Below are positions 5,522-59,613 of a DNA stretch of 64,000 nt, in pieces. The position numbers were made by a program, and so were the translations under genes. Numbering within the stretch: the stretch's first letter is position 1; each line of letters opens with the position of its first letter. The notes beneath the pieces were generated by a model. That model did not search any database. It had not been told where the DNA came from and saw only the letters and a program-made list of their open reading frames with translations. Source of the DNA: Nitzschia sp. pyKryTriq1 (taxonomy: Eukaryota > Bacillariophyta > Bacillariophyceae > Bacillariales > Bacillariaceae); NCBI GenBank assembly GCA_956465555.1, contig OY101130.1:1054001-1118000 (forward strand), read 5' to 3'.

Positions 5522-5594
5522 GGTAAAGGAATGGCAATTTTGTACTAGATCAACCCCTGATAGAGTAGGCCACTCGTAGATTCCCGGATAAAAA

Positions 5595-7551: not shown

Positions 7552-7582
<31 letters not shown>

Positions 7583-9919: not shown

Positions 9920-11893
9920 TACTACTACTTGCTGGCGACTAGTACGCTTGCTACTACTACTACTCCTGGTGGTGGTAGCAGTGGTGGCGTTCTTCTTCTC
10001 CACCGTCCCACCACTCCTGTAGTTCAACTACCATCTTTGGTCTACTACCACAACGTTTACGACAATGATGACAGGTGGCCGCCCCCCTACGGAAAGTCGT
10101 ATATTCATCAAGAAGAAGAGCATGAGCATCATCATCATGGTCGTGCACTCCCCTCAGCCGCAGTAGACGAAGAAGGAGAAGAAACAGCAGCAGTACTAGT
10201 AGTACCCGAATCCACAAGTCTTCTTCGAGGAGGGGGTGCTACCGGTGGATCACCGGCGGAGCAAGAAGAATATGATGATAAAGACGACGCGTACTATTCG
10301 TATTCCATTGTGTTTCCAAAGAAGCATCATTCGCAGCAGCAGTCTGGAGGAGAATCAAGAAGCACAACAAGAACCTTTCGAACACCTTCGTCTTCTGTCC
10401 TCCAACGTTCGCCTAGCATGGTGACGATGAGAAGAGGCATGCCTGCTCGGGACTTCGGGGGTCTCGAGGATCTCACGGAGGACCGGACACCCGGGGCGGA
10501 ACGGATCATTCAAGAAGGATCACCGCCGGATGAGGAAGATGAGAACGACGAGGACGAGGACCACGATGGCTGGATTCGGATTCCAGCGGAAGAACGCAAG
10601 GCTGCCGAGTATTTCTTGGATGATGACTTTCAGGAAGCAGTTCGGGCAACGAGGGAACACCTAGGACTGTCCTCGTCCTTCTCGCAGCAAGACAACAGTG
10701 AGGAAGAGGAAGGAGACGGCGATGATAAAGTCGTGCTGGAGAAGGACCACCAGCACGACAGGAGTGAGGATGACGAGGACGACGCGGATAATATGAATTG
10801 CCGAAAAGTGCAAGAGTATCGAATGGGTTTTCCGACGTGTAACGAGATGCATCAACTGGATCACTCCGGCGGTAACGTCTTGGCAAGTGGGTATGGCTAT
10901 ATAAATCATGGCTATTTTCGGGATGTATTCTCTATTAATCATCGTTACCGCGACGATGATCAGTATCACCAAGATGAGGACTCGTCCTCTGCGTCTTCCG
11001 ACCACAACCAAGAAGATCATCATCATCATCATCATCACCACCACCAAGATCATGACCGACTCGCCATCAAACAGATTCGATACGAGGATAGCAGTGCAGA
11101 TATTGAGTATTATGAGTATGTCCGAGTGGATGCATACGTGGCTGAGAGATTGACAGCCAGTCCCCGGACGTTTGACATTTACGGATACTGTGGCTTGAGC
11201 ATCCTGTCCGAGTTCTTTTATCATGGCGATATTGAAGCACGGGCCATGACGGATGAAAACGATGGATACATCAACCCAGCCGATTTGAATGACGAAGAAG
11301 ACGTGGATCCGAAAAATGATCTCACGCCCGAACAAAAGTTGGTCTTGGGACTCGAAATGGCCGAAGGTTTGGCCGATCTGCATGGATATGCAAATGCATT
11401 GATCCTTCACTCGGATGTCCAAATGAGTCAGTTCCTCTTGAACCGCGATAAGACCATGCTCAAGCTGAATGACTTCAATCGGGCCGAACTCCCTCTGTGG
11501 GATGAGGCTACAGGACAATACTGTCGATTCAGGGCCGGGAAGGGGCACGGGACTTGGCGGAGCCCCGAAGAATATCAAGATGAACCCTTGACCGAAGCCA
11601 TTGACGTCTGGTCTCTTGGAAACAACCTTTTCGCTCTTTTAACAGGTCTCAATCCACTCTTTGATATCAATGGAGGACCAATCAAGGAACGGATCATGGA
11701 CGGCGAGACCGGATACATCGATCCGAGATACGCCACTAGAAGCAAGGCCGAAGGTGCCCTTGTGAGCGTCATCAAGAAATGCTTCGAGTACTATGCCAAG
11801 GACCGAGCCACTATATTTGAGGTGGTCCAAGAGCTCCGCCAGGCCGTATCAGAACTTGGCATCTCCAGGGACGCCGTACTGAAGGATTTATGA
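9920..11893 (+). pseudogene. 5'-truncated copy of kinase-like gene A (gene A')
   Basis: The frame matches gene A from about residue 127 to its C-terminus, with only one amino-acid change noticed (Pro to His in the acidic region near 10748). It lacks the start codon, the N-terminus and the membrane segment. Upstream the frame runs back into retroelement sequence to a stop near 9866 with no ATG. The first internal ATG precedes VTMRRG near 10418. The kinase-fold region is complete, including LAIKQ, HSDVQMSQFLL, NDFN and WRSPEEY. It is either a very young pseudogene or, if transcribed from the inserted DNA, would give a soluble form. It is convergent with gene B' with the same 73-base gap as the parent pair. 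Confidence 0.8.
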
Positions 11894-11966
11894 GGTAAAG
11901 GAATGGCAATTTTGTACTAGATCAACCCCTGATAGAGTAGGCCACTCGTAGATTCCCGGATAAAAA

Positions 11967-14477: not shown

Positions 14478-15113
14478 GTTTTGTTACGTACGGACGTACG
14501 TTGATGATGGGATGGGATGGGATGGGATGGGATGGGACAAACAATACGACGGTGCTGATGGTACTGTCTGCAATGACCAGGTATAGTGCAGACTTTTATT
14601 TTTACACTGATGCTGGCAGCATGAAGTTATGCGGCAACTCACCTCAACTCAACTCACCAATACTCGAGACACGCATGTGTCCTTCCCATAATAATATGCC
14701 ATGCGCATAATAATATCATCGTCGATCTTCAAAGTGACGCGCGTTGTTGTTGGTTCTTGCTTGGGTTGGAAGCATTTTTATATGGAGTGGACGGCTTTCA
14801 TGTGAATGTATGCCGGCGTTCATCATATAGAACAACCAGTGCTGAAGGATAATTATAACAACTTCAACGGCTCCAGAAAACGGGTCATGCGGCGCTCGTA
14901 CTGTATGACATCTCGTGACTGGCTGCCTGACTCAAGACGGGAGTCGTCAGTCGTCCCTTCCTCGCCTCGCTCTTTACGTAGAGCAATGGCAGCCAGACTC
15001 TACTAGTACTCTCTACTAGTAGAGTAGTCTACCGTCCCCACCCATACTAAAGAGGTATCCTACCGGTATGTATCTACTACTAGTATGAAAGCCAAGAATG
15101 CTTTTTTTTACTA

Positions 15114-17597
15114 CTATAGTTGCTGAAGTACCGATTGCCGTGAGATCCCCCCCTTTCTTTCGACTAGTTCCGATACGGCTTCTTGAAGATACTGGACAAC
15201 GTCAAAGATCGTTGGCCGGTCCTCGGGGGCATACTCAAAACATCGTTGGATGATTTTCACGAGAGCACTTTCTTCTGGACTTCGCTCCATGTACCGAGGA
15301 TCGATAAAGGTAGTCTCTCCTTGGATCACACGTTTCCATATCCTCCTAGTACTACTACCATGCTTTCTTCTTCCCCCCGCCGTCTTGTTGTTGTTGTTGT
15401 TCAGTTCATAGAACGGCCTCAGACCTGTCAACAGACCAACCAAATTGTTCCCCAAAGACCATACATCAATGGCTTCCGTCAATGGCTCATCCTTGTATTC
15501 TTCGGGTGATCTCCAATCGCCATGACCATGTCCATTTTCATATCGACAATATTCCTGCCTTTTATCATTCCAAAGAGGAAATTCGGCCCGATTGAAATCA
15601 TTCAACTTGAGTCTTGTACGATCTTGGTTCAGTAAAAATTGACTCAGTTGGACATCGTCATGAATTATCAGACCATGACTATATCCATGCAAATCCGCCA
15701 ATCCTTCGGCCATTTCCAATGCCAAGACTAACTTTTGAGTTGCCGTCAAATTATTTTGAGAATGGACGACATCATCGACATCATCATGATCATGTTGTTG
15801 TGGTTGTTCCTGCTCATCATGTAAATCTTGTTTTGGTCGGATGCGCCCATGATCCTTATTGTTTTTGTTGTTACTATTTCCTCGTCCAAGAATCGAACGC
15901 TGTTCGATATCGCCGTGATGAAAGTATTCGGACAAAATACTCAATCCACAATATCCATAGATATCGTAGATTCGAGGACTGGCAGTCAATCGTTCCGCCA
16001 CAACAGCATCCATGCGGACAAATTCCAAGTTTTGCATATCGGAATCCTCGTCCAATGTGCTGGCTCCAATGTCTTTGAATATAATTTCTTTCATGGCGAC
16101 CTTGTCGAAACCACCATTACTCGTCGTAGAGCGGTAACGATGTGTGTAGGAAAAGACTTGTCGATAGCCACCATGGTTGATGAATGAAAAGTCACCTGCT
16201 GCGCTTCCATCAGCACTATCACCACCACCACCACTATCACCACCACCATCGGGAGAAACATGCATTTGATGAAATTCATTGCAATTGGAAAAGGCCAAAC
16301 GATGCTCGGAAATCCTTCGACAATCGGAATTATTGTCGTCGACGGCTTGTCCTCGCACCCAATCGTCATCGAAGGCGTAATATTCATCTTGTCCACCATT
16401 AGTAATAGGGGTGGCTTGTTCTTCCTCTTGATCCTCCTTATCGTCACTCGAATCTCTACTACCAACAATAGTAGCAGTAGTAGAATCCTCCTCCTCTCGA
16501 ATTACTCGTGGGCTACCCGGAACAAGATCGAAAGAAAATTGAAGACCTCCGTAGTCGGGAGAATGAGGAGACCATGAAGAAAAAGATTCTTCTGCATCAT
16601 CATCATCCTTGGAGGACGAAGACGACGACTCGTCCTCCTCCTTCTTTTGCTGGTTCTTGATTTTTGCTTGGTCTGCTTGTTCTTGTTCTTGTTCTTGTTC
16701 TTCGTCATTGGCGACCATCACCAGGGATGGTGGAAGGAATAAGTTCGACGCTGGTGGTGCTGGTGGAGTATCGGGGTGATCCCCACCAAAGACTATTTCG
16801 AATAATTCCTCGTTCGTGACGATATCACTATTGCTTGCCAAAGTGGTGCCCCGAAGACTTGTTGTTCCAACAGTGCCGACGTTGAAAAAGTGGATTTGCT
16901 GCATACTACTAGAGGACGACGAGTCCACATCGATGATGGCTTCGACAACGCCCCCGTCACGTTGATGTTGGTGATTATTCGGGGGTACTACTACCACCTG
17001 CTGCTGCTCCATCATTGGCGGATTGAAAAAGGCCACCTGGTGGTGATCATGGTAGTGCTGCCCAGAATGTTCTTCCAGGTTGCTGTCGTGTTCTGACAAT
17101 ACGAGGTACATTCGAAGCGTACATAAAAATTGGAGAGTCACAAACAAACAAACGCTTCCAACAACCCATCGAACCTGCCGTATTCTTCTCGACGAAGAGG
17201 AGTGTCGGGGGACGGCGGAAAGCAACCATCGATAGTAACAATACTTCTTGCAGTAGTAGTATGGAGATTCGTCGATTGAGGAATAAGCCGCCACTGTTCG
17301 AGCGTCTACGAGTATTTGACTGACCCGATCGATGTCACTGGGACGACGACGATGCCCTCCTTCTTTTGTTCCCAGCAACACAGCCGAACTGCATTCTCGA
17401 TGCAGGACGCCGGCAGTTCTTCTGCGTCTACTACTAGTACTCCGCCTTGTTGTACTACTAGTACTAGCAACATCCACCATCTCCGGGGCTTCTCTGGCAA
17501 GTGTCATTACCATGGTACATTCGTTCGATGGATCTGCTTTATTCAGAAAGGAATACCATGCCGAATAATGGGGCAAGATCTTCTTGGAGGATGACAT
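15114..17597 (-). CDS. Membrane-anchored divergent protein-kinase-like protein (gene C)
   Basis: An 827-residue single-exon member of the same family as genes A and B but clearly diverged, so it predates the tandem duplication. The membrane segment is at about 139-165, preceded by an Arg/Ser-rich N-terminus, and an acidic Ser/Gln-rich linker follows. The kinase fold shows INHGGYRQVF, VAMKEI, catalytic loop HDDVQLSQFLL near 646, NDFN near 664, GHGDWRSPEEY and DVWSLG. It therefore shares the Lys-to-Gln, Asn-to-Gln and DFG-to-DFN changes and differs in HDD against HSD. It has no intron where B has one. Its 5' end and promoter are duplicated at 20563 onward, where only the first few codons survive. 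Confidence 0.85.
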   Translation of the reverse strand: MSSSKKILPHYSAWYSFLNKADPSNECTMVMTLAREAPEMVDVASTSSTTRRSTSSRRRRTAGVLHRECSSAVLLGTKEGGHRRRPSDIDRVSQILVDARTVAAYSSIDESPYYYCKKYCYYRWLLSAVPRHSSSSRRIRQVRWVVGSVCLFVTLQFLCTLRMYLVLSEHDSNLEEHSGQHYHDHHQVAFFNPPMMEQQQVVVVPPNNHQHQRDGGVVEAIIDVDSSSSSSMQQIHFFNVGTVGTTSLRGTTLASNSDIVTNEELFEIVFGGDHPDTPPAPPASNLFLPPSLVMVANDEEQEQEQEQADQAKIKNQQKKEEDESSSSSSKDDDDAEESFSSWSPHSPDYGGLQFSFDLVPGSPRVIREEEDSTTATIVGSRDSSDDKEDQEEEQATPITNGGQDEYYAFDDDWVRGQAVDDNNSDCRRISEHRLAFSNCNEFHQMHVSPDGGGDSGGGGDSADGSAAGDFSFINHGGYRQVFSYTHRYRSTTSNGGFDKVAMKEIIFKDIGASTLDEDSDMQNLEFVRMDAVVAERLTASPRIYDIYGYCGLSILSEYFHHGDIEQRSILGRGNSNNKNNKDHGRIRPKQDLHDEQEQPQQHDHDDVDDVVHSQNNLTATQKLVLALEMAEGLADLHGYSHGLIIHDDVQLSQFLLNQDRTRLKLNDFNRAEFPLWNDKRQEYCRYENGHGHGDWRSPEEYKDEPLTEAIDVWSLGNNLVGLLTGLRPFYELNNNNNKTAGGRRKHGSSTRRIWKRVIQGETTFIDPRYMERSPEESALVKIIQRCFEYAPEDRPTIFDVVQYLQEAVSELVERKGGISRQSVLQQL

Positions 17598-26787: not shown

Positions 26788-29700
26788 ATGGCGACTTTTC
26801 CCAATATGAATGATACTGATAAGATTCCTCGGGCTCGCAGCGCGGACGATGAGGAGGTATCCAGACCACTACAAGCACCCTTTCGGGGTCCCATCGGTAT
26901 TCGAAATAATGCTGACGATGAAGCAGAAAACTCCTCCACAACAAGAACATCGCCTTCCGAGGAGCAAACCACGTCAGATGCAGTGGATGATGATGGCGAT
27001 GGTGATGGTGCAGCAGGGGCAGGATCCATATCGGAACAAACCCAACATCAACCCCCGCCCCCAAGTTCTCAACGACCCGTGATCGAGGCCGTTCCTTCAA
27101 ATGAAACCAGGAGCTCTGCAGTATCATCCAATACTGGTTCTCGAGACTGCTATTCCTCTTCTCAATCGAAACCCAGCACCACCGCCAACAAGCCGCCACC
27201 TCCAAGTTATTCCGTCCTGCCGGGAGCTGTGGCGGTCCCTGGAATGAATAATACAAGTAACCCAACGGAACAAAACAGTGTTGAGAATCAAAATACAGAC
27301 GACGACTCTTCCAGTCATGCAGCGAATACTTCGGTCGGTGCCCATTCCATTCGAACATCTCTAATATCTACTCCAGCATGGTCCAAAGAAGAGGATTCCT
27401 CCTCGGCTCAACAAAACAGTGCTGGAAGCTACATATCATCAAACCAGCAGATACAAGTTCCTACCAGTACCCAATTGGCATTAGGGCCACAACGACATGC
27501 TCCATCGTCTACCACTAGACCATCACCGCTTGCCAGCGTCACTTCACCCACAGCCACTTCCGCCTCTGCCCAAATAAGAAGACAACCATCCCCAGAGCAT
27601 GCCCCTATAGTCGCCCAGTTGTGTCTTGATGAAGATGAAATTGCCAATCGAATCCAGAAGCAAATTGAACAACGACTTCAATTAGAAGTCAAAAATCGGT
27701 TGGAGAGTGAACGGAATCGCCATATAGCCGTGGACGCAGTCCTCATGGATGAATCCGTGGACGAGGATAGCAACTACAACCATGATGACTCCAACATTTC
27801 TGGTACCTCGAATACCATTCTGGGACTTTCCAAATCCACCTTTTGGTGTTCCATGGCAGTTTTACTAGTCATTCTTGCCGGTGTGGGCGTCGCTGTCGGA
27901 CTACTCTTGACGGGCGGAGAGGATGACGGCACCGATGTGCCTACTACTAGTATAGTAGATCCACCCACGACTACCAGCAGCCCCACGGCCAAGGCACCTA
28001 CTCTTTCACCCACTCGATATACTACTCCCGCATTTGACAAGCTTCTGGCTCTGATTGGAAACGAGATTTCGGACGACATTGATATCTTGAGAAACCCCGA
28101 GACGACTCAATATCAAGCTCTCGATTGGCTTGCCAATGTCGATGAGTGGAATCACGCATTATTGGAACAAAGTAGTGGTGTATCACCATCGACTCAAGTA
28201 TTGGTGGAACGATTTGCCCTGGCGCATTTCTATCTATCGACGAATGGTCCGCTTCTTTGGAGCAATCAATATAATTTCCTGTCAGCCAATACGTCGGTGT
28301 GTGAGTGGATGGATCCTGCGACAGGACTTGGCGTGGCATGCGATATCAATAATCTCTTTGTCGAGCGACTCGAGTTGCGTAAGTAATACTTCTCCTCCTC
28401 TACTCTTTCGCTCTTGGATCGGTCTAACAAAAAGCTTTGCTTTGCTTTGACTTGACTTGTTGCTTACAATTCTTTGTCTGGCAGCCGAATCGGGAATTCA
28501 AGGCTCGATCCCCTCCGAGATGGCGCTACTGGATAGCCTCGAGCAGCTGACCTTGAGTGGCAACGTAGTATTGGGCAGGATACCGTCTGAAATCTATCAA
28601 ATGTCGAATCTGATAGTGTTGGAGTTGGAAGATTGTGCGTTGACAGGGACCATTGCCACGGAGATTGCACAGCTGAGAAAGCTACAGGCATTGGGCCTGG
28701 ACCACAATTCATTCTTTGGAGCCATTCCGACCGAGCTCGGTACTCTCACCGCACTCACTCGACTACACGTCAACGAAAATGATATCAAGGGATCCATTCC
28801 TACGCAAATCGGGGCGCTGCGGAGACTGACTATGTTCGATGTCCAAGGAAATGGCATGACGGGCTCAATTCCCACCGAGTTGGGTCAATGTTCAGCCATG
28901 GTCTATCTCTACCTGGAACAAAACAGATTGAAAGGGTCGCTTCCGACTGAATTGGGCCGGTTGACAAAGTTGAATCATTTGTTTCTTAATGAAAATCTAC
29001 TGAGTGGAACCATCCCGACCGAACTCCAACTTCTCACGAAATTGGAATTTTTGTCGTTGAATGGGAACAACTTTGTGGGCAGCTTGGACGAAATCTTTTG
29101 CTCCGGTGTTGGTGCAACAACACCAACAACACTGGTGGATGGTGAACTCTGGGCCGACTGTCTGGGCGATATTCCAGAAGTCTTCTGCAGTTGCTGTTCC
29201 TATTGCTGCAATGCTCAGCTCATTTGTGAACAAGTGGAATTGCCACCCGAAAGTCTCCCTCCAAACGTAAACAATAATACGGTCGAGTTCCTGGAGCTCG
29301 TGGACATCATTGGTCCACTCGTATCGAATGATTTGAATGTCTTTCTTGATCCAGATACCGCCCAATACAAAGCTATGGATTGGCTGGCCAATGTTGACGA
29401 ATACGATGTGTCTAACTTTCCGACTCAAGTCATGCTGGAGAGGTATGCGCTAGCTGTTTTGTATTTTGAGACCAAAGGGCCCACTCTTTGGACCTCGCAA
29501 GTCTCCTTTCTTGGAAACAGTTCTGTTTGCGAGTGGCAAAATAGTGACAATACAGGCGTCTCTTGCGACGAACAAGGGATATACGTGACAACGATTGATT
29601 TTGGTACGTAACGAGATGAACGTTGGAGCAGTCTTGCTTTTGTTGAAGCTACAAATATGGTAGAAACAACCTCACCATGCGCCTGTTCCGTCTCTCTTTT

Positions 29701-31005: not shown

Positions 31006-31763
31006 TAATCATTGAACGATCTACTATCTACTAGCAGAGCCACTAGTAGTCGCTACTACTTTAGATACTGTAGGGTACGTTGGGGTCCTTTTGGTCGGCG
31101 GACGAAGACGTTTTGACTGCTCCGACCGAACATATGTTCCATCTCCTGTTTCCTGTTTTTATGGGTGGACGGCCAGATGAAATTATGCAGGTTTTTGGAA
31201 AAGGAGCAACAAAAAATCTCGCACGCATCAGCTTCCGAGTTCCGATAGCTGTTTTGGCGCGCTACAGTATTTTGGTAAGATCCCGTACCGGCATGTACGC
31301 GTGTAGCGTGACCGTCTTGCGTGATGTACGTTTTCGCGGGCTTTTTGGCTTCTCTCATGATATGATGTTGCACGCTGTATGTATCCGGGTTGTTGAGGGT
31401 CGTGCGGTGCGGTTTGTGACCGCCATTATATTTTGATCCTTGCGTTTTGTGTGCTTCTCTCTTCTCGCTATCTCTTCTTTGGTTTCCGAAGTTTTTTCTT
31501 CACAAGTAAAGACGAATCATCAAAAAGCAAGCAGGAGACGTCTTTGCTTTGCTTGATGATTCATCATTCGAACGACTGCCTTTGTCGTCCAACTTGAATC
31601 ACATCAAAAAATCCATCTGTCTCGCTACTAGTTCCAAGAACAAGAGCGCAGCAGCACGAGTAATACTACTTCTTGATCATATCATTGAGACCATACTAGC
31701 TACTTGTAGCTACTGGTAGAGACCTCATCCAGGAAATTGCCCATCGATCATCAATCATCAATC
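31006..31763. other. Intergenic region between LRR genes
   Basis: About 760 bases. A 118-codon frame at 31080-31436 starts with a non-ATG codon and shows no domain, so it is not called. CTACTA/TAGTAG-rich words occur just after the stop (31020-31065). A GAATCATCA/TGATGATTC inverted pair lies near 31513 and 31555. The promoter of the next LRR gene should be here. Confidence 0.4.
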
Positions 31764-33266
31764 ATGCCACCACGGACAAAGGATGAAGAAGCGCCTCCCC
31801 CGGCCCGACCGCCGGTCCGGACCATGACCCCGGCCGCTTCTTCTTTTGCTCAATACTATGCCAGTAACAACAGTCATATCAACAGCAACAGCAACAGCAA
31901 CAACGATGAGGACAACAGTACCATCGCGACTGCAGATATTCCTCCGCCCCCCGAATTGCGAAGTCGAGAACAAGGAGCCCCGCCCCTCGTCCCAGTCTCC
32001 TCGTCTTCCTTGCGAGCCAACAGCAACAATCGAACTGAAAACAACAATACTACTACTACTTCTACTACTTCTACTTCAACTACAATGTTACCACCAACAC
32101 CCACAACGCCCAACAAGAACAACAACAGAGTCGTCCTACCACCGGTAACGGTGCCATCCAGTAATACAAATCATGATTCTGCCGCTGCTGCTGCTGCTGC
32201 TGATGGTATGATGAGTGAGAATCAGTTTCAAGTCAAGGCCTACATGGCCGCCCTAGGGACACAAGAGAATATCAACGTTCCTCGGATTGCTCCCGGGGCC
32301 ATTCCGGTACACGGAGGAGTGTCCTCCTCGGGTAGGATACTGCCTTCGAATTCTGCTTCGTCATCAGCATCAGCATCAGCAGCATTCCCTAATAGTACCA
32401 CTCAGCATCATCCTATTGTTCATGCCGAGTGGGACAATGTTGGTGAACCTAGTGAACGAGACGAGGATGATTATTATTATAATGATGATGATCATCATCA
32501 TCATCATCAACACCACCACACGACTCCTCCTCTCGTGGCACAATTGGCTCCCGATGAGGCCGACGTCGAAGCTCGATTGGCCGAACGATTAGAACGTCAG
32601 ATTACCGAACAATGGCAAGAACGATTAAAGCAAGAAGTGGAAGCTCAACTCTCGACGCAACGGCGGCAGCAACAGCAGCAACAGCAGCAGATCACTGTCG
32701 TGGCCGAAGCGGTCGTATTGTCTAGTACGCCGGCTACTACTACCCGTAATACGACGGCCAGAACATCTAGTACAACTACTACCAGTGCTGGTGGTGGTGG
32801 TGGTGGTGGCGGCAATACATCGACTAGGAATTCCTCCTCCTCCTCCTCTTTCAAGAAAAAGAAGCCCAATACTACCAGCAAATCTTCTTCTCCTTGCAAC
32901 AACAACAAGAAGAAGAAGAAGAATAGTGTTCATGTTGATGATGATGATGATGACGATGACCGAAAGAACCATAATTTCAAAATTTGTGGTTTGCCAAGAC
33001 GGACTTGGGGATTCCTATTGCTCATGATTATGGTCTTTTTGGCGGGTGCCGCCGTGGGAGTGGTCTTTTATTTGAGAAGTCAAGCAGAAGCAGCACAACA
33101 ACAACAAGAACAAGAACAAGAAGACGACAAGAACTCATCAGCGGGATCTCCTGCTCCAACACCCAGTCCTACCTTGTTGCGAGGTACTCCTTCCCCGACA
33201 CGCAATGAAAATTTGGAGTTGCTTCGAAAAGAACTGGAACCTTGGATTTTCCTTCCAGCACAACCG

Positions 33267-33301
<35 letters not shown>

Positions 33302-34517
33302 CGAGGAGGAGGAACAGGAGCAGAAGCAGGAGCCACTCGACGATCCTTCCAGTCCTCAATCACTTGCCCTTCAATGGCTCTCCAAAGATCCCATTGGCAT
33401 GATGATTTCCACCAGCACCAGCTCCACCAACAGTCGTCCGACCGCTGTGGCCTTGGAACGCTATGTTTTGGCTGTCTTGTACTTTTCCACCCAAGGACCT
33501 ACTCGATGGAATCACAATGTTGCAAATGGAAGCGGACAATCCTTTCCATTCTTGACGCAAGCCAGTGTCTGCGACTGGAATTCGGGACCTTGGGACGAAG
33601 ATGCTTTTGGCGTGTACTGCCATGAAGAAGGTGGAGGAGAAGGAGAAGGAGGAGCTAATACTACAGGCAACAATGTTGGAAGAGTACAATCTTTCTTCTT
33701 GAGGCAAGTGGGTTTGGAGGGTACGATTCCCTGGGAGTTGAGTCTATTGTCCAGTTTGGAATTTGTCGAACTGGACCAAAACTCACTCCAAGGGACCATC
33801 CCCATGGAACTATCCCAACTGACTACTCTTCAAGGACTTTGGCTCTCGTCCAACTTTTTGACCGGTCCCCTGCCTTCCATCCTGTCACCGACCATGGAAA
33901 GTATGGACTTTGCCAGAAACGCCTTGACAGGAACCCTTCCGACAGAATGGGGATCGAATATGCCTCTCCTGTATTGGTTGGCGATTGGAGTTAACGAGAT
34001 TGAAGGCTCTTTACCCAGCACCTGGCAAGGCTTGGGATCTCTCGAATATTTAGATTTGGAATCGAATCAAATTGGTGGTACACTCCCTCCTGCCTATGGG
34101 ACACAATGGCGGAATGCCCGTTCCCTCTTTTTCGAAAAGAATCAACTCACCGGTCCTCTCCCTACCGAACTCGGTCGACTGGTCAATCTGTTGGATTTAC
34201 TACTCTATGACAATGCCTTTACGGGGACCGTTCCTACCGAAATGGCAGGTCTATCCAATCTGACATCCTTTGCCTTTGATGCCAATGAATTGACGGGATT
34301 GGTGGATTCGATCTTTTGTAGTAGTAGTAGTAGTAGTACTACAACCAGTACAAGAGATTGGGAACTTTTACGAGGGGATTGCCTTGCCGCCGATAGTAGT
34401 GGTGGTGGTAATTTTACTGGTGGTACATGGCAACTGCAGCCGGCTATCCAATGTACGTGTTGTACCGCTTGCTGTACGGGGGATGGAATCTATTGCGAAG
34501 ATAATAATGCCTTTTGA
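31764..34517 (+). CDS. LRR receptor-like membrane protein, intronless
   Basis: 917 residues from the ATG at 31764. It has the same plan as the preceding gene with one ectodomain module. There is a long Ser/Thr/Asn-rich cytosolic part with an AERLERQITEQWQERLKQE helix, a Lys/Asp-rich stretch, and a membrane segment at about 411-438. A Pro/Thr linker and an Asn run follow, then the cap (LALQWLSKDPIG ... ALERYVLA ... SVCDW) and about eight LRRs (GTIPMELSQL type). The C-terminal Cys cluster is CTCCTACC. The frame runs straight through the cap/LRR border where both modules of the neighbour have an intron. Triplet repeats coding Asn, Gln, Ser and Thr are abundant. Likely a sensing or adhesion protein; ligand unknown. 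Confidence 0.85.
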
Positions 34518-41313: not shown

Positions 41314-43533
41314 CTAATCCTTTTGGAGAACGAGTAGTTCATATTCCTTTTGTTTGCAGCAAGGATCGAAGAGCATGGAGTTGACTCGAAAGAGACATTT
41401 TTCCTTGTCATAGATGACTTTGGATTTGCGGCGTCGATGGCTGAGTGATTGAATCGAAATGTGGGGAAAGTTTTCGACAATGTACTTTTTGAGTGTATCC
41501 TCCATGTCCATCATGCTGGGTCGTTGCCGATAGTCATAATGCCAAGCACGGTAAATCAATTGGTACAGGGTATCGGGCAATCGAAGTTTGGCAAGGTTGG
41601 GGCGTCGGTACGGTGGGCCCCACACTTGGGCAAACATGGTTTCAAAGTCGGTATGTTGGGCGAATGCGGGTTGCAAGCTCAATATTTCGTAGCACAAGAT
41701 GGCAAAGGAATAAACGTCCGCTTTTTCGTTGTACGGTCGCTTATGAGCGACTTCGGGGGCCACTGTTATGGATACATGATAGAAAACAAAACGTAGAGGA
41801 GTGAGTTGTTAGTCGTCGTCATAATATAGTGATGGATCACTCCAGCTACTAGCTTCGGTAGTAGTAGCTAGTAGAGCAGCCACGCCGGAGTTATCCCAAT
41901 ACATGTATCAGTGGTACTTACTGTAACGTGGCGATCCACACATGCCCGTGAATTTGTACACGGAATTGGGTGTCCGATTGGGCATTTCCTTGGCCATGCC
42001 AAAATCAAAAATCTTGATATCTCCTCGAACATCAAAACCTACATTCTCTGGTTTGATATCCCGATGGATCAAATTGTTTTGTCGGTGCAAGTAGTTGAGA
42101 GCCGAACTGAGATGGTAGGCTTGAACGATACGATCGGAAAGGGATCCCGCCTTGGCAATCTTTTGATGTCGAAAGGGAATCAGACGACTTTTCAAATGTT
42201 TGAAAATGTTCTTGCTGTCCTTATTTTCAGAGACTCGCCATACTTGCATTCGTTGTCCCAAGGTTTCATACAAGCGGTCCAAAACCAAAAAGAAATCCGG
42301 CTGGAATCGATCGCCCGCTTTGATGGCTCGGAGTTTGATAATATTGGGATGTTCCAAGACGGAAAGAATTTTGGCCTCCAAGACGAGATCGGCAATGCCT
42401 TGGACCAACTGTTTCTTTTTCGATGTGGCAGCAGTAGCACCAGTTTCGTCTTGTAGTTGTTGTTGTTGTTGTTCTTCGTCTTCTTCTTCTCCTTCTAGTT
42501 GGACAATTTCTGGACTGAGTTTCTTGATGGCATATCGGGCATGCCCTTCGTTCCGAAAGGCATGTGCTGCCATGAATTTCCGGCTCTCCAAATCCCCCGC
42601 GGGAACTTCTTCATCCGCCACATCAGGATTATCACGAGGCAGCACGCTGTTGTCAAACGATCGTCGACGCAAGTGCTGTTGGATGATGTTGCTGCTGCTG
42701 CTGCTCCTGCTTTGTTGTTCACTATTACCACCAGCAGCAGCACCACCCCCACCACCACCACCCTCCAACAAATTAAAACCACGAACTTCATTGACAGTCC
42801 CAAAACAACCCTTGCCCAAGACTTCACCATAGACAATTTCCGAGTGTAAAAAGTGTGGAAAGTTGTTGGTCATGTCGAGCAATTTGGATTGCGATTCTTC
42901 AAAGCCCTTTTGATAGACCTTGCGGGCCAAGTCACAGGCTTTTTGTATATTCTTCTTCTTCTTCTTCTTGGTAGTACTGCTCGTACTGCTAATATTCGGT
43001 TTGGCGAGTGCTGATGCTGTTGCTGATGATGGTGGTCCTTCTTCTTCCTCCTCATCCTCCTCCTCCAGTTGCTGTAAATCATGCTGAGTCAAGTGCTGAC
43101 TTTGATGCAAGGATTTGTTATTGATATTATTAGCATTGTTGTTGTCTTGCTCACCACCAGACAAGATGAGTCCTTGTTGTGCTGGAACGAGATACTCTTC
43201 GCCCACTTCATCGTGATTATTGTCCTCGTAGTAGTAGCCGTAATCATTATTATCATCATTGCCTCCTCCTCCTCCTCCTACGGTCATAATACTATCGACA
43301 TCGCCATCGCCATCGCCATCGCCATCGCCATCGACATGATGGGTCTCTGACAACGGATACTCGTCGTCTTCCTGGTCTTGTTCTTCTTCATCTTTGATGA
43401 CTGAACCATCAGCTTCGCCGCCGCCATTATTATTGTCCATGGAAGAAGTGGGCGCGGTGGTGCTGGTCGTGGCCGTGGTCGTGGCCTCTTCCAACAAATG
43501 GGCATCCGCAGCATCCGTATCGGTGGCTCCCAT
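41314..43533 (-). CDS. Ser/Thr protein kinase, two exons
   Basis: Exon 1 is 43533-41922 and exon 2 is 41762-41314, with a 159-base intron (donor GTAAGT, acceptor ACAG); 686 residues from the ATG at 43533. The first ~220 residues are low complexity (Thr, Asn, Asp/Glu and a Lys run). The kinase domain is canonical: LGKGCFGTV, a Gly/Ser/Gln-rich insert, YAIKKL, HRDIKPEN, FDFGMAKE, YMAPE (the Met codon spans the intron), then KADVYSFAILCYEIL and RQRPSM. All catalytic residues are present, unlike the family at 3-17 kb. The closing ~50 residues are basic and then aliphatic. Substrate unknown. Low-complexity inserts within the N-lobe are typical here and may be tolerated loops. Confidence 0.88.
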
Positions 43534-44479
43534 CTTGGTATACAAATAGTGTTGTTATTCTCGTACAGTATCAGTATCCGTATTGTATGATGGTGGTGGC
43601 TTTTTGTGCACTAATACTCGTTCACTTGGTAACTATTTGTACCGGTGCTGATCACCAACGCATGCGATACAGTATGTGGAAGAAGGAATGAATGGAGAGG
43701 ACAGAACCAAAGTTCTGCACCATCGAATATAATGAATGGCGGCGCGGTTGGCGATGCCGATCGATTTTTTGTTCCTTTTGTTCCGTATCTATGTACTACG
43801 TGTACCGTAGTACCGGTAGTACTGTTGGGCCCCAACAACTTCAAATACAATGTCACTCACATTATTGGCGCCCAATAAATAAGTGAATTTTCTTGCTTGT
43901 TGATAGCATGTGCGCCTCTTTTGGTCCTTCATCTATCTTCGCCATTTTTGATTCGTGATCGGCTTGTTCTCCGGACAGAAAGATCGCCACGCTCGGTCGT
44001 ATAATCCAATTTCACATTCCATAAGTAATAAGACGTCATTATCTCCGTCTATACGACATGACAGGCCGCCGGCCACTCCAACAACTCCACATCATTCGCC
44101 GCCGCCGCCGCCCTGACGATGATGTCATTGGTGATTCGTTTGCGTACGTACGTGACGTTTTATTCGAGGCAGTCGACCACTGACGTTGCTCGCTCCGCCC
44201 CCCGAACTAAAAGCCATCAAAGCGAAGCTTCGCACCGACCCATCAGCAGATCTCCAAAACATAGAGCAAACCCACGACGGCGATGATGCGCGATGATGCA
44301 TGATGATGACTCAAGATCGATGACGATGCTGTGCGATCGATGGATCGAGAAGAATCCATGATCCTTTCTCGACGCGCCGCCAATTTATACACTACCACCA
44401 TACTATTACTTGATTCTCCACATCATTAATCTTCTCTCATCTTTCCATAATATTCATCATCACCACCACCATCATCATC
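43534..44479. promoter_or_regulatory. Divergent promoter region
   Basis: About 950 bases between the kinase start and the thylakoid-lumen gene start. A TACCGGTA palindrome at 43811-43818 lies within a larger near-palindrome of GTAGTACCGGTAGTAC. GATGATG and ATCATC words and GATCGATGGATCGA occur near 44280-44350. No core promoter element can be named. Short frames near 43600-43880 are not supported. Confidence 0.4.
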
Positions 44480-51356: not shown

Positions 51357-52304
51357 TCACGACTTCTTGTTGTTGTTCAAGACGTTGGCCAAGTCGCTGG
51401 GACTCAAAGTTAATCGAAATGGGACCGATTCCACACCTGGTTTGGGAGACTTGCTCGTCGATTCCAAAAAGAATCGCCACGGTTCCAAATTGTCGTATCG
51501 ATGCAATATTTCCACGACGGCTTGTAAATGCATCAAGTAATCGAGCTCGGTCTCGTGCCGACACAGACGTCGATTGCCAAAGGCTACGGGTAGAACCGTC
51601 ACATAGACAGATGGGGTGGCGGTGGTGGTGGTGGTGGTGGTGGAGGTAGCCGAAGAATAATAGCCTCGCCGTTCAAAATCCACATCGAGTGGTACTCCCC
51701 ATTTCGAAACGAGCAAGTCTCGCAGGGCATATCCATCAAAGTCGTCTAGTAGGGGAGGTTGTTGCAGTTCTTTTTCACTAACTTCGCCCTTGGAGAATTG
51801 ACTCGTTTTTGTTCTTTGGATCGAAGCCGCCGCCGCTTGAAAGGCTTGCAAGGAAATGATTCGTTCGTCGTCGTCGCTGATGCTGGATGATGAGGCGGCA
51901 TTCTTGGAATAGGCCCCCATCACTCCTTGCTCCATATTTGTTGGTGTACGATCACTTTGTTGTTGTCGCTGCTGCTGCTGCTGCTGCTCTCGTCGTGCTT
52001 TGATCAGTTTTCGTTCACTGGGACCATATGTGCTAAATTCAATCACTTCTTCCCACAAATCGCCCAACCAGTTGTTCCATCTTCTCGTCGTGCTACTAGA
52101 ACAATGCTGGTAAAAATAATGAGTACATGTAGTACGACGACGGACGATGATCGATCGTGACGAGAATGGCATTGGTGCTGGTGGCATTAGCAGCACAAAG
52201 GATTGGGAAACATAATAACGATGATCGGCGCAGAGGAGCACGAAAATAAGTAGTACTGCCACGACGCCGACCGAGGATGGGAAATGACGAACAACAAGAA
52301 CCAT
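51357..52304 (-). CDS. DUF3067 protein, probably plastid-targeted
   Basis: 315 residues. The N-terminus is a signal peptide with core VGVVAVLLIFVLLC, followed by SQSF, a diatom plastid-type junction with Phe at +1, and a basic, Ser/Arg-rich transit stretch. A Gln/Arg run lies at about 107-118. The conserved region is at about 187-290: DFDGYALRDLLVSKWG, PLDVDFERRGYY, a Thr-rich insert, YVTVLPVAFG and RHETELDYLMHLQAVVEIL. These match the DUF3067 family, which is known mainly from cyanobacteria and plastid-bearing eukaryotes and has no proven function. It is convergent with the deaminase-fold gene. Confidence 0.85.
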   Translation of the reverse strand: MVLVVRHFPSSVGVVAVLLIFVLLCADHRYYVSQSFVLLMPPAPMPFSSRSIIVRRRTTCTHYFYQHCSSSTTRRWNNWLGDLWEEVIEFSTYGPSERKLIKARREQQQQQQRQQQSDRTPTNMEQGVMGAYSKNAASSSSISDDDERIISLQAFQAAAASIQRTKTSQFSKGEVSEKELQQPPLLDDFDGYALRDLLVSKWGVPLDVDFERRGYYSSATSTTTTTTTATPSVYVTVLPVAFGNRRLCRHETELDYLMHLQAVVEILHRYDNLEPWRFFLESTSKSPKPGVESVPFRLTLSPSDLANVLNNNKKS

Positions 52305-54711: not shown

Positions 54712-57700
54712 CTATCCCTGTGATCGTTTCGATCGGTCAAACCAATGCAAAGGATTCGACAGGTTTGAACGGACAGAAAAGTCCAATCCTCTATTCGATG
54801 ATCGAGCCGATGAACACAATGATCGATCCGATCCATCAATTGATGAGGGTGCGCTGGGCGACGATGGATTTCCTTTCCATCTTTCTTGGTAGGCCGGTGA
54901 AAACAAGCTGCCTGAACTGAATGCATACCTGAGCACCTCCTTCACGCCTTCGACGGTACATGGTTTTGGAAGATATCCAATGGCACCCGTTTCGAGACAT
55001 GTCTGTCGGAACGTATCTGACACGTGGGCAGTCACGAAAATAATCTTGGCTAGCGCATGTTCTCCGTCTTTGGGTACACGCTTGTTGATTTCTTGACAGG
55101 CTTCAATGCCATCCATCTTGGGCATTTGCATATCCATCAATACGAGATCGAACGCTTCTTTTGACTCTCTTTCGACAGCTTGGACGCCATTGCTGGCAAT
55201 TTGGATTGAGTGAATTCCAAGCCGATTCAGGATACGGGTCAGCACCTTTTGATTCACCAAATTGTCTTCGGCAATCAGAATACGAAGGTCCTCCCAGCCG
55301 GCCTTGATAGGAACCACAGCAGCTTTGTACCTTCGCCTACCACCCTCATGAAGCAAGGCGTGTGCCAACTGACCAAGTTTGTTCACTAGCACCGAAGGAA
55401 ACGTTTCGACGAGAGAACGCCAGTGCTTTTTGGTCATACGTTCAACAGAGAATTTGGGACCAAATGTCGCCAAGCAAGCGGGGAACCTGGCAGCCAGTAG
55501 CTCATATGTCTCAATTTCACAAAGGTCTTCGTGAGCAAGACAAACATAGGCGCCGGCTTGTGAGGTTGGGCTAAAGGGGGGACTTGATAAATTCATTGCC
55601 AAATTCAAGTCTCTCATAGTGTTGAAATGAGCGTATTGGACATTGAAATGATTGAATATAGCCTGGACTCTTTCCGTTTTGGGATCGTTGGCATCGGCAA
55701 TAAAGAGGATGATGGATCGGTCGAGTTTCGAAGAGAGGTGTTGAGCGTCCACTGGTCGATCCGTTTTCTTGAATGGGAAATCTACAGTGAATTCGGTCCA
55801 ACTTCCAACTTCACTCGCGACGGCTATTTGGCCTCCCATGGCATCGACTAGCTTTTTCGTAATGGCTAGCCCGAGACCTGTACCTCCCGTCGCATTGCTG
55901 AGACCAGTCTCGGTTTGGCGAAAGGGTTCAAAGATTTTTCCAAAGTCCGCCTCTTCAATACCCTTGCCAAAGTCCTTGACGGAAAACCGAATAATCCTGG
56001 CATCCTCGACAATCGACACACCAAATTCCACCTTCCCTTCTTCACTGCTAAATTTAATCGCGTTTCCAAGCAAGTTGTAGAGAATCTGCTGAATACGGCG
56101 ACTATCCGAATGAATGACTTCGGGCAGTAAAGGATCGTAGTTGGTTATGACATTCAATTTCTTGTCCACTGTCACGGCGCTTGTTTGAATGAGATGAATG
56201 ACTGCATTGAGAGTTTCTTGAAGATTGATCTTTTGTATCAGAACTTGAGCGTTTCCACTTTCCAATTTGGAATCTACAGTATAGAACAAGAACAAAAAGA
56301 TTGGAAGTGAGTGATGCATCAGAGTGAGATGATGATTATCCTGTACTCGTAGTAGATACAGTAGATCGAGGCTCGTTTGACTGGATCGATCCAACGTCTG
56401 GCATCGACGCCTGACGACTCGATCGATCGAACTAAAGTACTTACAGTCGAGAACGTCATCGACAATCTGCCGCAGTAGCTTTCCACTCGAGACTATCATT
56501 TCCATAGATTCTTGTTGCATGGCATTGAGTTCCGTCTCTTCCAATAAACTAGAGAGACCAATGATACAATTGAGTGGGGTTCGAATCTCATGAGACATAC
56601 AGGCGAAGTGTTGCAGCTGCATGGCCGAGGCGGACGCAATCTTGTGGTTCGCTTGTTCCAGGTCTTTGTTCAAAGCCTCGAGACGACTCGTCCGTTCCTT
56701 GACCTTGAGTTCGACCTTGAGTGCCACGTCTAATTGTTCGGCGGTCGGACGTTCCTTAGGATCATGTTGAAAACAATCGTCCATGAGCTTGGCCACCCTG
56801 GCGGGGCAGTGGAGAGGGATTAGAGGCCGTTTTCGAATGTGGGGATCGCAAATCTGTCGGACGACTTCTTCGTACGCTTCTCCAGCATACGGGGGTCGAC
56901 CGGAATAGATTTCGTACATGACCATTCCATAGGCGTAAATGTCGGATGCGGCCGAGTTGACAGATTCTCCCAACAAGAGCTCCGGGCTCATCCAGTAGGG
57001 AGTACCGACGGCACCAATTTGCTTCTTTCCCGAAAGACCAAAGTCGGTTACCTTGGCACAAAAGTTGGTATCAATCAAAACATTTTGAGCCTTGAGATCA
57101 CCATGGATGACTTGAGGAGTGGCCGAATGTAAAAAACGCAATCCTTGTGCCACATCTTGAAGAATGGCCAGTATTTGTTCGGGTTTGAGAACAATCGAGT
57201 CGTCTTGGAGTACATCATAGAGCGATCCATGGGTCATGTATTCCATCACCAACATGGGTTCATCGCGTCTGGTAGGCATGACGGCGCCCATGACGGTCGT
57301 AATGCAGGGATGTCGAAGTCGAGCAAGTTGTCGAATCTCATTGACGAATTCCGCCTTGAGACGTGCTTGGACATCGTTCTCACTCTGTTGGCAGCAGATC
57401 CAAGAGTGGACGAAGCGTTGAAGACCATTTTGACTTTTGAGGGCTTGTTCTTCGGCCAGTTTGCGTGCCTGTTCGGACAAGTGTTGTTGGAGTTTGGCAG
57501 GGGCCAAGCTTTTCATGCCCGGATGGAAGGAGCGCATTCCAGCTTCCATATCTTCGTTCGTTAATAATTGTTGTTCACCACCGGCGCCGTCATCATACGT
57601 TGAGGTCGTCTTGGAAATATCAAAAAGAGTGTTGCGAGTATCGGCAACGGGTTTGTCGGAGGATGACGATGAGGATGGAATGACTCGTTTCACGGCCACG

Positions 57701-59613
57701 CTGGTACCACGGTACTCTGCCAAAAGGACCAGTCCAAAGGTTCCTCGTCCAATCACGCGAGGCGGGTTCTCGAATTCGAGTTCGGAAGGTTTGACAATCC
57801 ACAACGAGTCTGACTGACGTCGTTTGTGTTCAATATAAAAGTGGACCACCACTCCGACGACCAATAGGACGGGTAAGATGATACTCGGCAAGAAGATGGC
57901 CAAACTGACACATCGATCGCCCATTACTTGTATCGAGTCGACGCACACGAGTTCATAGGGTGCCTCACAAGGACGACAGACACATTGATATCCCTCTTTG
58001 CATTCGAGACCAACATCCTCACATCCCACATCGACTTGTTCTTTGGTTTTGCGATTGTATCCGACCGGACAGGAGATTGCATCATACAATTCGGTCGATC
58101 GGATACATCTCCACGTTTTGGTATCCGGTTCCATGCTGATAAAGCCGGTCGCTTCTTGCATACTTCGTAATTGCATATAACTCAAGGACGTGGTCCATCC
58201 GGCATATTTACCGTCAGTCGTGGCACGATACGCAGCAGCCACCACGGCATGGGTCGCACTGCATTTAATCGGACCATCATAGTAGAGAGTGGAAAGATCC
58301 ATTTCATTGCAAACCTCCGTTCCATTCACGGCAATACATTCTTCCAAGGCTTGTCCGACTTTGGCAAAATCGGCCACAGACAGCATCGCCCGTTGGACTT
58401 CATTACTGACTTGGGGATTGACATGAGTCAAACCTGCCACATTCCATTCGGCATACAAATCCGTCGAGGATTGAAAAGGAAAGGGAACTCCGTCGATTTC
58501 CAAGCCCGGTTTGGGATCCAATATTTTAAATCGAGTGACATTGACGGGAAGTCCATCCCTCGCGTCAATGCTTCGTTCCAATTGATCCGTCCGAACAAAT
58601 CCGACATCAAACTCTCCTTCCAACAATCCCTGCACGACCAATCCTTGATCGCTCGTAAAGACGAGTTGTTTGGGATCATTTAAATAATGCATCCCCGCAT
58701 CGACCATTTCTTTGAATTGCATTTGACCACTCCCCAATCCCGAAATGGACGCAGCCGCCACCACTTGATCTTGCAAGTCCAAGATGGTATTGATGTCGTC
58801 CCGTTCGGCCAAGGTGGCAATGACGCCGCCAAACTTTTTCAAATCGTACACATTCCCCCCGACCTTTCGTCGACTGACTTGACTCACCAACGAATGCGCT
58901 TCATATTCACTTTCGATACAAGAAAAGGCGGACGGATTGACGTAGATGAAATCCACACCCTGACTTTCCGTTTCACTAAAGAGTGTCACAAAATCCAAAG
59001 GTTTCATTTGAAATTGAATGGGAGGATCGAATCGCTTTCCGGCCGTTTCCGTCAAGTAGTCGCTAAAGGTCGCATTGAATTCGGCAATCGCGTCGTCAAA
59101 GCCTCGAATCGCCAAGACACCAATCGTATACACATGCTGAATACTGTTGCTGATGCTCATCGTGCTGGCGCTGCTGTTGTTCTTGTTCTTGTCGGAGGAT
59201 GATGATGATGAGGGATCCCACGGGATGGGAATTTGACAGAACGTCCCATCTTCTACGAATTGCACCAAATCTCGATCATTCGTCTTTTGTTGTTGCTGAG
59301 TTTGCTGATGTTGATGCCGAGTTTTTTTATTTTCTTTCGCCGATAAAAGATCGGCCGGAGCAGTATTACTTCTTATTGCACTTGTACTTGTACTTGTGCT
59401 CTTACTTCTTGTTGCAGTACGAGTAGCAGCAGTACTTGAAGTATCGATGGTGCTTGCACTACCTGTACTTACAACAACCAACCAGAGGGTGATGGTGGCA
59501 AAGAAGAAATACCGGTAGCAACTTCTAGCAGCACTACTTCCTCTCGGAGGAATCATCATCATCGTCGTCGTCGTCATCGTCATCGTCATCGTCGTCGTCG
59601 TCACCATCGTCAT
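54712..59613 (-). CDS. Hybrid receptor: PhnD-like ectodomain, TM, TKL kinase, histidine kinase, receiver
   Basis: Exon 1 is 59613-56445 and exon 2 is 56273-54712; 1576 residues. The 171-base intron (GTAAGT...GTAG) is a multiple of three without stops, so the unspliced frame also reads through; splicing restores VLDYSKLESG. A signal peptide lies near 31-50. A periplasmic-binding-like domain of PhnD type (IGVLAIRGFDDA ... VDFIYVNPSAFSC ... GLLEGEFDVGFVRTDQ) spans about 165-420. A Cys-rich stretch (CKEGYQCVCRPC) precedes the TM at 567-592. The TKL-type kinase has GRGTFGLV, VAVKRV, HGDLKAQN and TDFGLS. The histidine kinase has SHEIRTPLN near 1007, NLLGNAIKFS, DFGKGIE and GGTGLGL. A degenerate receiver follows, then an intact one (AEDN, MDMQMP, the phospho-acceptor near 1435, Lys in YLPKP). 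It should sense a small ligand outside and signal through both kinase types. Confidence 0.92.
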   Translation of the reverse strand: MTMVTTTTMTMTMTTTTMMMIPPRGSSAARSCYRYFFFATITLWLVVVSTGSASTIDTSSTAATRTATRSKSTSTSTSAIRSNTAPADLLSAKENKKTRHQHQQTQQQQKTNDRDLVQFVEDGTFCQIPIPWDPSSSSSSDKNKNNSSASTMSISNSIQHVYTIGVLAIRGFDDAIAEFNATFSDYLTETAGKRFDPPIQFQMKPLDFVTLFSETESQGVDFIYVNPSAFSCIESEYEAHSLVSQVSRRKVGGNVYDLKKFGGVIATLAERDDINTILDLQDQVVAAASISGLGSGQMQFKEMVDAGMHYLNDPKQLVFTSDQGLVVQGLLEGEFDVGFVRTDQLERSIDARDGLPVNVTRFKILDPKPGLEIDGVPFPFQSSTDLYAEWNVAGLTHVNPQVSNEVQRAMLSVADFAKVGQALEECIAVNGTEVCNEMDLSTLYYDGPIKCSATHAVVAAAYRATTDGKYAGWTTSLSYMQLRSMQEATGFISMEPDTKTWRCIRSTELYDAISCPVGYNRKTKEQVDVGCEDVGLECKEGYQCVCRPCEAPYELVCVDSIQVMGDRCVSLAIFLPSIILPVLLVVGVVVHFYIEHKRRQSDSLWIVKPSELEFENPPRVIGRGTFGLVLLAEYRGTSVAVKRVIPSSSSSSDKPVADTRNTLFDISKTTSTYDDGAGGEQQLLTNEDMEAGMRSFHPGMKSLAPAKLQQHLSEQARKLAEEQALKSQNGLQRFVHSWICCQQSENDVQARLKAEFVNEIRQLARLRHPCITTVMGAVMPTRRDEPMLVMEYMTHGSLYDVLQDDSIVLKPEQILAILQDVAQGLRFLHSATPQVIHGDLKAQNVLIDTNFCAKVTDFGLSGKKQIGAVGTPYWMSPELLLGESVNSAASDIYAYGMVMYEIYSGRPPYAGEAYEEVVRQICDPHIRKRPLIPLHCPARVAKLMDDCFQHDPKERPTAEQLDVALKVELKVKERTSRLEALNKDLEQANHKIASASAMQLQHFACMSHEIRTPLNCIIGLSSLLEETELNAMQQESMEMIVSSGKLLRQIVDDVLDCKYFSSIDRVVRRRCQTLDRSSQTSLDLLYLLRVQDNHHLTLMHHSLPIFLFLFYTVDSKLESGNAQVLIQKINLQETLNAVIHLIQTSAVTVDKKLNVITNYDPLLPEVIHSDSRRIQQILYNLLGNAIKFSSEEGKVEFGVSIVEDARIIRFSVKDFGKGIEEADFGKIFEPFRQTETGLSNATGGTGLGLAITKKLVDAMGGQIAVASEVGSWTEFTVDFPFKKTDRPVDAQHLSSKLDRSIILFIADANDPKTERVQAIFNHFNVQYAHFNTMRDLNLAMNLSSPPFSPTSQAGAYVCLAHEDLCEIETYELLAARFPACLATFGPKFSVERMTKKHWRSLVETFPSVLVNKLGQLAHALLHEGGRRRYKAAVVPIKAGWEDLRILIAEDNLVNQKVLTRILNRLGIHSIQIASNGVQAVERESKEAFDLVLMDMQMPKMDGIEACQEINKRVPKDGEHALAKIIFVTAHVSDTFRQTCLETGAIGYLPKPCTVEGVKEVLRYAFSSGSLFSPAYQERWKGNPSSPSAPSSIDGSDRSLCSSARSSNRGLDFSVRSNLSNPLHWFDRSKRSQG
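56274..56444 (-). other. In-frame intron of the hybrid receptor
   Basis: Lies between the H-box/dimerisation helix and the ATPase domain of the histidine kinase. Length 171, no stop in frame. Donor GTAAGT after GTTCTCGACT; acceptor TACTGTAG. Retention would insert 57 residues in the linker. The spliced junction fits the HisKA consensus, so this is an intron. Confidence 0.88.

Follow-up and report, generated by a model that had tools for sequence, protein, structure and literature searches.

The window analysed here is a stretch of 64,000 nucleotides of the diatom Nitzschia sp. pyKryTriq1 (GCA_956465555.1, contig OY101130.1, positions 1,054,001 to 1,118,000), and its positions 54712-59613 hold a genuine multi-domain gene that encodes a single chain on the minus strand. 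The reading frame is 1633 codons long unspliced and gives 1576 aa once an intron is excised. The features are as follows:

54712..59613 (-), whole gene, 1633-codon open frame, spliced product 1576 aa
56445..59613 (-), exon 1, start codon through the initial part of HisKA
56274..56444 (-), in-frame GT-AG intron of 171 nt, at the same position in relatives
54712..56273 (-), exon 2, remaining HisKA, HATPase, two receivers (one putative) and stop codon
59452..59508 (-), hydrophobic N-terminal stretch, aa 36-54 (hydropathy scan), likely a signal peptide
58369..59073 (-), PhnD-class binding domain, aa 181-415 (PF12974), with SISG at aa 289-292, Gln323 and RTDQLE at aa 341-346
57910..58107 (-), Cys-rich stalk, conserved Cys 503-568
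57844..57900 (-), single transmembrane segment (TM), aa 572-590 (hydropathy scan)
56728..57780 (-), tyrosine-kinase-like (TKL) protein kinase, aa ~612-962, with G622/G624, K642, E759, D839, N844 and D857 intact
56590..56751 (-), linker from Arg955 to His1008, exactly 53 residues
56446..56616 (-), HisKA, aa 1000-1056, phospho-acceptor His1008, running on into exon 2
55768..56106 (-), HATPase_c, unspliced aa 1170-1282
55348..55716 (-), putative degenerate receiver-like domain, canonical acceptor Asp absent
54937..55281 (-), intact receiver, unspliced aa 1445-1559, acceptor Asp1494 (spliced 1437)

The domain order is thus hydrophobic N-terminus, PhnD-class domain, Cys-rich stalk, TM, TKL, linker, HisKA, HATPase, putative degenerate receiver and intact receiver. 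A Pfam scan of the full protein gave matches above the curated cut-offs to Phosphonate-bd (aa 181-415, E 4.9e-13), PK_Tyr_Ser-Thr (aa 746-962, E 3.7e-49), HisKA (aa 1000-1056, E 2.1e-14), HATPase_c (aa 1170-1282, E 1.5e-25) and Response_reg (aa 1445-1559, E 1.1e-24), the last two in unspliced numbering, and no guanylate cyclase (PF00211), GAF or AAA domain at E 0.01. A binding-protein ectodomain, one TM and a kinase-type domain stand ahead of the output, which is the layout of receptor cyclases.

The intron (56444-56274) contains no stop codon and interrupts HisKA. Its excision converts DDVLD[CK...TVD]SKLESG into DDVLDYSKLESG, matching homologues that include P0005 (Nitzschia) and P0008 (Cylindrotheca). 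Both bear identifiers of MMETSP, which we take to be a transcriptome project and to mark them as transcript-derived, and both have the spliced form DDVLDYSK. Read-through into the intron ('DDVLDCK...') begins at the identical residue in eight sequences, including P0002, a copy almost identical to the window gene. The intron is therefore considered real and old, since transcript-derived homologues are spliced and eight sequences enter it at the same residue. A preliminary description, made from the letters of this DNA, had proposed a single-protein receptor at 54712..59613; the domain order it gave stands, and the minus strand and the intron had been overlooked. Transcripts encoding separate proteins, which it had raised as a possibility, were not seen, and the transcript-derived relatives P0005 and P0008 span all domains.

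Two readings were discarded on account of the intron. Because it is in frame, the length of the open frame cannot be taken as the length of the protein, and 'PhnD-TKL-HisKA without ATPase' is not an architecture of its own, as the frames concerned (P0006, P0012, P0013, P0017, P0020 and P0021) enter the conserved intron.

Elsewhere in the window, 3548-8676 and 9920-15022 form a 5.1-kb direct duplication (98% identical), the first copy of which covers most of the kinase-bearing open reading frame 3170-5521. Other open reading frames (protein kinases, two leucine-rich-repeat, one DUF3067) lie at 15114-17597 (-), 41908-43545 (-), 28457-29611 (+), 31737-34517 (+) and 51357-52304 (-), and the window contains no Rfam or tRNA matches.

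Ectodomain, kinase and phosphorelay modules

A phmmer comparison of the ectodomain with PDB sequences gave chance matches only (best E 0.14), so it was aligned with its bacterial kin instead, and pocket residues were located through profile and sequence alignment. The structure model matches XAC2383, ArrX, PtxB, PhnD and AioX, in agreement with the earlier placement in the binding-protein class, and predicts the two-lobed fold of the PhnD/PtxB/AioX class. The paired Ser of the class are kept (Ser289 and Ser291), and the pocket His (AioX His192) is replaced by Gln323; of the 38 diatom ectodomains aligned, 37 have Gln at this position. The bacterial kin are stand-alone binding proteins, adjoined by a histidine kinase at 26 of 44 loci and by a chemoreceptor at 16 of 44 (two of the 46 bacterial loci, L099 and L100, were excluded as short partial matches), and are sensor subunits. 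Among NCBIfam models the TtrS sensor kinase comes closest, with a score far below its cut-off. These partners, the TtrS model and the Gln in the pocket weaken the earlier guess of ligand and nutrient, and phosphonate nutrient sensing was rejected as the default reading because a conserved Gln takes the place of the pocket His.

Genes for a Ser/Thr-type protein kinase, a PhnD-class binding protein and a histidine kinase stand in a row on one cyanobacterial contig (L064:1596-8682). This single case has all three receptor modules of the diatom protein as neighbours.

In the kinase, an N-lobe and a low-complexity insert precede the Pfam match at 746-962. Both loop glycines, K642, E759, D839, N844 and the DFG Asp (D857) are present, and by these residues and its relatives the domain is of the TKL type; the closest match among kinases of solved structure, compared by sequence, is plant CTR1 (E 5.6e-36), followed by Roco4 (PDB sequences). 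Among TKL-histidine kinase (TKL-HK) proteins DFG is retained in 33 of 36. In the remaining three, P0008, P0009 and P0011, which together form one clade, Asn replaces the DFG Asp, and the HisKA, HATPase and receiver residues are still intact. This clade indicates that a TKL domain can persist without normal kinase chemistry. The strict DFG pattern is matched by 121 of 138 cyclase kinases, the other 17 lying outside the pattern and not being judged; in an alignment of 42 cyclase-set kinase rows, P0057 has Ala in place of the DFG Asp, and gaps fall at catalytic sites of P0056 and P0059.

The output module is a hybrid histidine kinase in which H1008, N1127, D1157, G1159, G1189, D1437, T1471 and K1493 (spliced numbering) are all present. 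The preliminary description had read the catalytic residues of the TKL kinase as full and the histidine kinase as complete, and both readings hold, the latter through HisKA, the ATPase N and G boxes and the residues of the second receiver (REC2). Its further statement, that a eukaryotic kinase and a two-component relay are united under a single sensor, agrees with the Pfam scan, which finds all modules in one chain. Of its two receivers, the intact one is recovered by Pfam and the degenerate one by model fold, not by profile. Between HATPase and REC2 there is no Pfam match, and a profile comparison of this region with REC2 was not significant (hhalign probability 0.9%). In its AlphaFold2 model (pLDDT 87.7) strands alternate with helices; a Foldseek search with the model returned many receivers at marginal E, just six matches were at E 0.001 or better, and lysine decarboxylase occupied the first two rows. 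With moderate confidence, the modelled domain is assigned as a degenerate receiver.

Relatives, trees and the rest of the genome

Relatives were gathered with the full protein (best 120 of 333), the TKL-HK part of P0052 (best 120 of 4396) and the P0061 ectodomain (best 120 of 150), and 269 proteins or gene pieces were sorted by purpose-built profiles. These comprise 25 PhnD-TKL-HK, 67 PhnD-TKL-cyclase, two PhnD-HK without TKL, 11 TKL-HK with another ectodomain, 71 TKL-cyclase with another ectodomain, 48 HK alone and 45 with no recognised output. The window gene is thus one branch of a larger family, as judged by these profiles, in which the ectodomain-TM-TKL unit more often ends in a guanylate cyclase. 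The 25 PhnD-TKL-HK rows are the window gene, P0002 and 23 others at 40-74% identity; the whole order occurs in at least 14 other sequences, two of them transcript-derived, and a shortened version in at least nine more. Chance assembly is excluded by these 23 sequences, 14 of which are complete from PhnD to Response_reg (among the matches listed).

PhnD-TKL-HK sequences with an organism name come from Nitzschia, Cylindrotheca, Seminavis and an unnamed Bacillariaceae (among the matches listed), all of which we take to be raphid pennate diatoms, and the PhnD-TKL-cyclase form occurs also in Attheya and Rhizosolenia (again among the matches listed), presumably centric genera. As this range rests on sequences with an organism name, it is a lower bound. 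Alternative ectodomains on TKL-HK are FG-GAP (P0052, P0053 and P0122), with weak binding-protein matches below the cut-off in P0124 and P0126; those on TKL-cyclases are ANF, other binding proteins, and ANF combined with a seven-helix class C receptor.

Several unusual combinations were observed. An ANF-type ectodomain, a seven-helix class C core, TKL and guanylate cyclase are joined in one chain in P0155, P0189 and P0190 (Pfam check on P0155 and P0190), and P0219 combines a PhnD ectodomain with a class C core. In P0061 and P0063 a PhnD ectodomain and TM sit directly on a different HK-REC-REC, without TKL. A PF00233 phosphodiesterase-type domain is also present on the PhnD-TKL-cyclases P0060, P0236, P0244 and P0245 (precomputed table).

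TKL trees were built from 174 and 173 of the 207 rows with a kinase match, and an ectodomain tree, rooted at the midpoint, from 90 of 136 rows (output known, match spanning at least 300 aa). All come from quick searches, unrooted as computed, with SH-aLRT as the sole measure of support, and the long branches P0201, P0065, P0258 and P0058 (ectodomain tree) and P0049, P0025 and P0249 (TKL tree) were retained. In the TKL tree of 174 rows the output label changes a single time (branch 99). With the 173 kinase-only rows it still changes once (99), and the ectodomain label changes 13 times. The TKL lineage therefore tracks the output, and ectodomains have moved among lineages. TKL-HK proteins with FG-GAP or other ectodomains nest within the PhnD-TKL-HK group, beside P0014. 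In the ectodomain tree HK-output rows fall among cyclase-output rows, with two changes over three labels; the branch separating the cyclase rows is supported at just 65, and which way the change ran depends on where the root is placed. The TKL-less P0061 and P0063 ectodomains cluster with 14 PhnD-TKL-HK rows (95).

The assembly to which the window belongs (40.65 Mb, 20 contigs) contains ten PF12974 matches: the window's, one on contig C15 and four on C1, each of the last with a counterpart on C3. The C15 gene and the four C1 genes were translated (two of the five as two frames each, read as exons) and all are PhnD-TM-TKL-cyclase; the C3 counterparts have cyclase matches at corresponding places. 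The four C1 genes lie within about 173 kb (G000 C1:4436000-4609300), with counterparts on the matching part of C3, and in their ectodomains G-I-x-D takes the place of the S-I-S-G of the window gene.

When the 29 HisKA loci were searched together with flanks of about 1.5 kb at both ends, TKL was detected at one, the window's. The genome also has 45 receiver matches and a candidate exon for a free HPt protein on C14 (L044:1486-1731, motif HVIKGAASNLM), which by its sequence is a likely phosphorelay partner. Candidate partners thus exist in both classes.

Signal transmission and its alternatives

In 34 of 36 TKL-HK proteins the phospho-His lies exactly 53 residues after the Arg that ends the kinase. 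The exceptions are P0015, with 28 extra residues just ahead of HisKA that are perhaps an unspliced intron, and P0010, whose gene model is without the H-box; a first pattern put six TKL-HK proteins off 53, and a second reading settled all but P0015. In TKL-cyclases the stretch between the corresponding Arg and the cyclase motif is 59-76 residues long in 102 of 107 measured proteins and 91-98 in five, where an earlier Arg-Pro was perhaps picked up (107 of the 138 proteins were measurable). A 17-residue spacing in the N-terminal part of the kinase is found in 27 of 32 HK and 128 of 132 cyclase proteins, regardless of output. Because that spacing is also nearly constant, the fixed linker is suggestive at most, in a comparison that covered TKL-HK and TKL-cyclase proteins.

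On balance it is probable that the gene encodes a single-pass receptor in which ectodomain, TM and TKL are joined to a hybrid histidine kinase, and that the TKL domain is an in-cis transmitter with an added, tuning catalysis. A small ligand would close the clamshell ectodomain within a dimer, and closure would be relayed via the Cys-rich stalk and TM to a TKL dimer. The signal would continue into the HisKA bundle along an unbroken helix running through the 53-residue linker, and autophosphorylation of His1008 would thereby be switched. Phosphate would then pass from His1008 to Asp1437 (spliced) of the last receiver, to a free HPt protein and on to response regulators, with the degenerate receiver probably structural or regulatory. 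The TKL domain would serve mainly as in-cis transmitter, and in most lineages it probably acts as a functional kinase too, either tuning the relay or modifying substrates of its own. Animal receptor cyclases provide a known case in which a kinase-homology domain serves as an in-cis transmitter.

Control of the histidine kinase by TKL in cis would fit both the constant linker length and a kinase tree sorted by output, although such a tree is equally expected from descent of one TKL-HK cassette without co-adaptation. The existence of the TKL-free PhnD-HK proteins P0061 and P0063 means that TKL is not required for a PhnD ectodomain to reach a histidine kinase. Transmission combined with tuning is favoured over a catalytic cascade or separate outputs because of the DFG-loss clade together with the DFG kept in 33 of 36 proteins; this same retention would argue, against a view of TKL as transmitter only, that catalysis also matters.

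A catalytic cascade, in cis or in trans, strikes us as rather unlikely. The TKL domain would here phosphorylate Ser/Thr in the HK module or a MAPK-type target, with the receiver gating TKL, an arrangement that may be likened to plant ethylene-receptor histidine kinases controlling CTR1, fused into one protein. It gains from the intact K642, E759, D839, N844 and D857, from the frequency of DFG (33 of 36) and from CTR1 being the best solved sequence relative (E 5.6e-36), but P0008, P0009 and P0011 keep their HisKA, HATPase and receiver residues without the DFG Asp, and a flexible target would need no constant linker length. That TKL and the histidine kinase form two independent outputs, each with its own targets and no cross-talk, seems improbable. 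The 53-residue linker and the output-sorted kinase tree suggest, but do not prove, coupling, against two points in favour of independence: both enzymes appear complete by their residues, and related ectodomains also occur on TKL plus cyclase and on HK without TKL.

An artefact of the gene model, with two genes joined or the HK part translated apart, is very hard to credit. The frame includes an unspliced intron, so that its length alone proves nothing, but the whole order recurs in at least 14 other sequences (two transcript-derived), the intron position is conserved, and exact splicing restores the conserved HisKA motif.

Beyond the in-cis transmitter reading of this one gene, we propose tentatively, as a quite conceivable generalisation, that the family is a combinatorial system in which TKL is the standard transmitter, the sensors are interchangeable (PhnD-class, ANF, FG-GAP, other binding proteins and class C), the outputs are cGMP or phosphorelay, and coupling is by a rigid helix of fixed length. 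If so, the signal from related ectodomains could emerge either as a second messenger or as His-Asp phosphotransfer.

Comparison with known systems

To our knowledge, the sensing of dissolved signals by diatoms is poorly known, and the family described here is a concrete receptor set that joins a bacterial-type sensor to cGMP and to phosphorelay signalling, with a eukaryotic kinase domain as the link between binding protein and histidine kinase. As far as the accessible parts of the sources extend, a diatom sex pheromone induces a bifunctional, probably transmembrane cyclase/phosphodiesterase (PMC4726125), 45 receptor-type cyclase genes of Seminavis shifted in expression under bacterial-signal compounds (PMC7296067), and a review of eukaryotic histidine kinases names diatom ethylene-receptor, CHASE and phytochrome types and not PhnD-TKL-HK (PMC6944256). 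In the literature searched, partly accessible and with subscription papers and preprints outside its scope, no published description of the PhnD-TKL-HK order was found.

Receptor cyclases that contain kinase-type domains are already known. The PhnD type of diatom receptor-type guanylate cyclases has an ectodomain, Cys-rich stalk, single TM and TKL homologous to those of the window gene, at 34-62% identity in the matched parts (among the matches listed, in which Seminavis records bear the cyclase name). These cyclases end in a PF00211 output after a variable linker, whereas the window gene ends in HisKA-HATPase-REC-REC. The phosphonate/phosphite proteins PhnD, PtxB and HtxB are transport subunits; the window ectodomain is 8-15% identical to them in structural alignments and is without their pocket His.

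In plants, the histidine kinase receptor ETR1 and the TKL kinase CTR1 act together, ethylene receptors signalling through CTR1. ETR1-CTR1 is a pair of proteins with a different sensor, whereas the window gene encodes one chain, and CTR1 is the best PDB sequence match to its TKL domain. In the AioX-AioS and ArrX systems a binding protein sharing this fold probably passes its signal to a histidine kinase, according to the accessible part of one account (PMC5908839); these are separate bacterial proteins, whereas the window ectodomain is fused and has Gln323 in place of the pocket His.

The preliminary description noted the merger of a eukaryotic kinase with a two-component relay. The two are indeed in one chain here, but it missed a fungal precedent: in the part of the source available, the hybrids Chk1 of Candida and Mak2 of fission yeast likewise hold a Ser/Thr-type kinase and HK-REC in one protein (PMC9069115), and Mak3 is also counted among such hybrids. 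In Chk1 and Mak2, as that part describes them, the kinase is far N-terminal and AAA and GAF domains precede the histidine kinase (PMC9069115), whereas the window protein shows neither of these domains by Pfam at E 0.01 and has an ectodomain and a TM.
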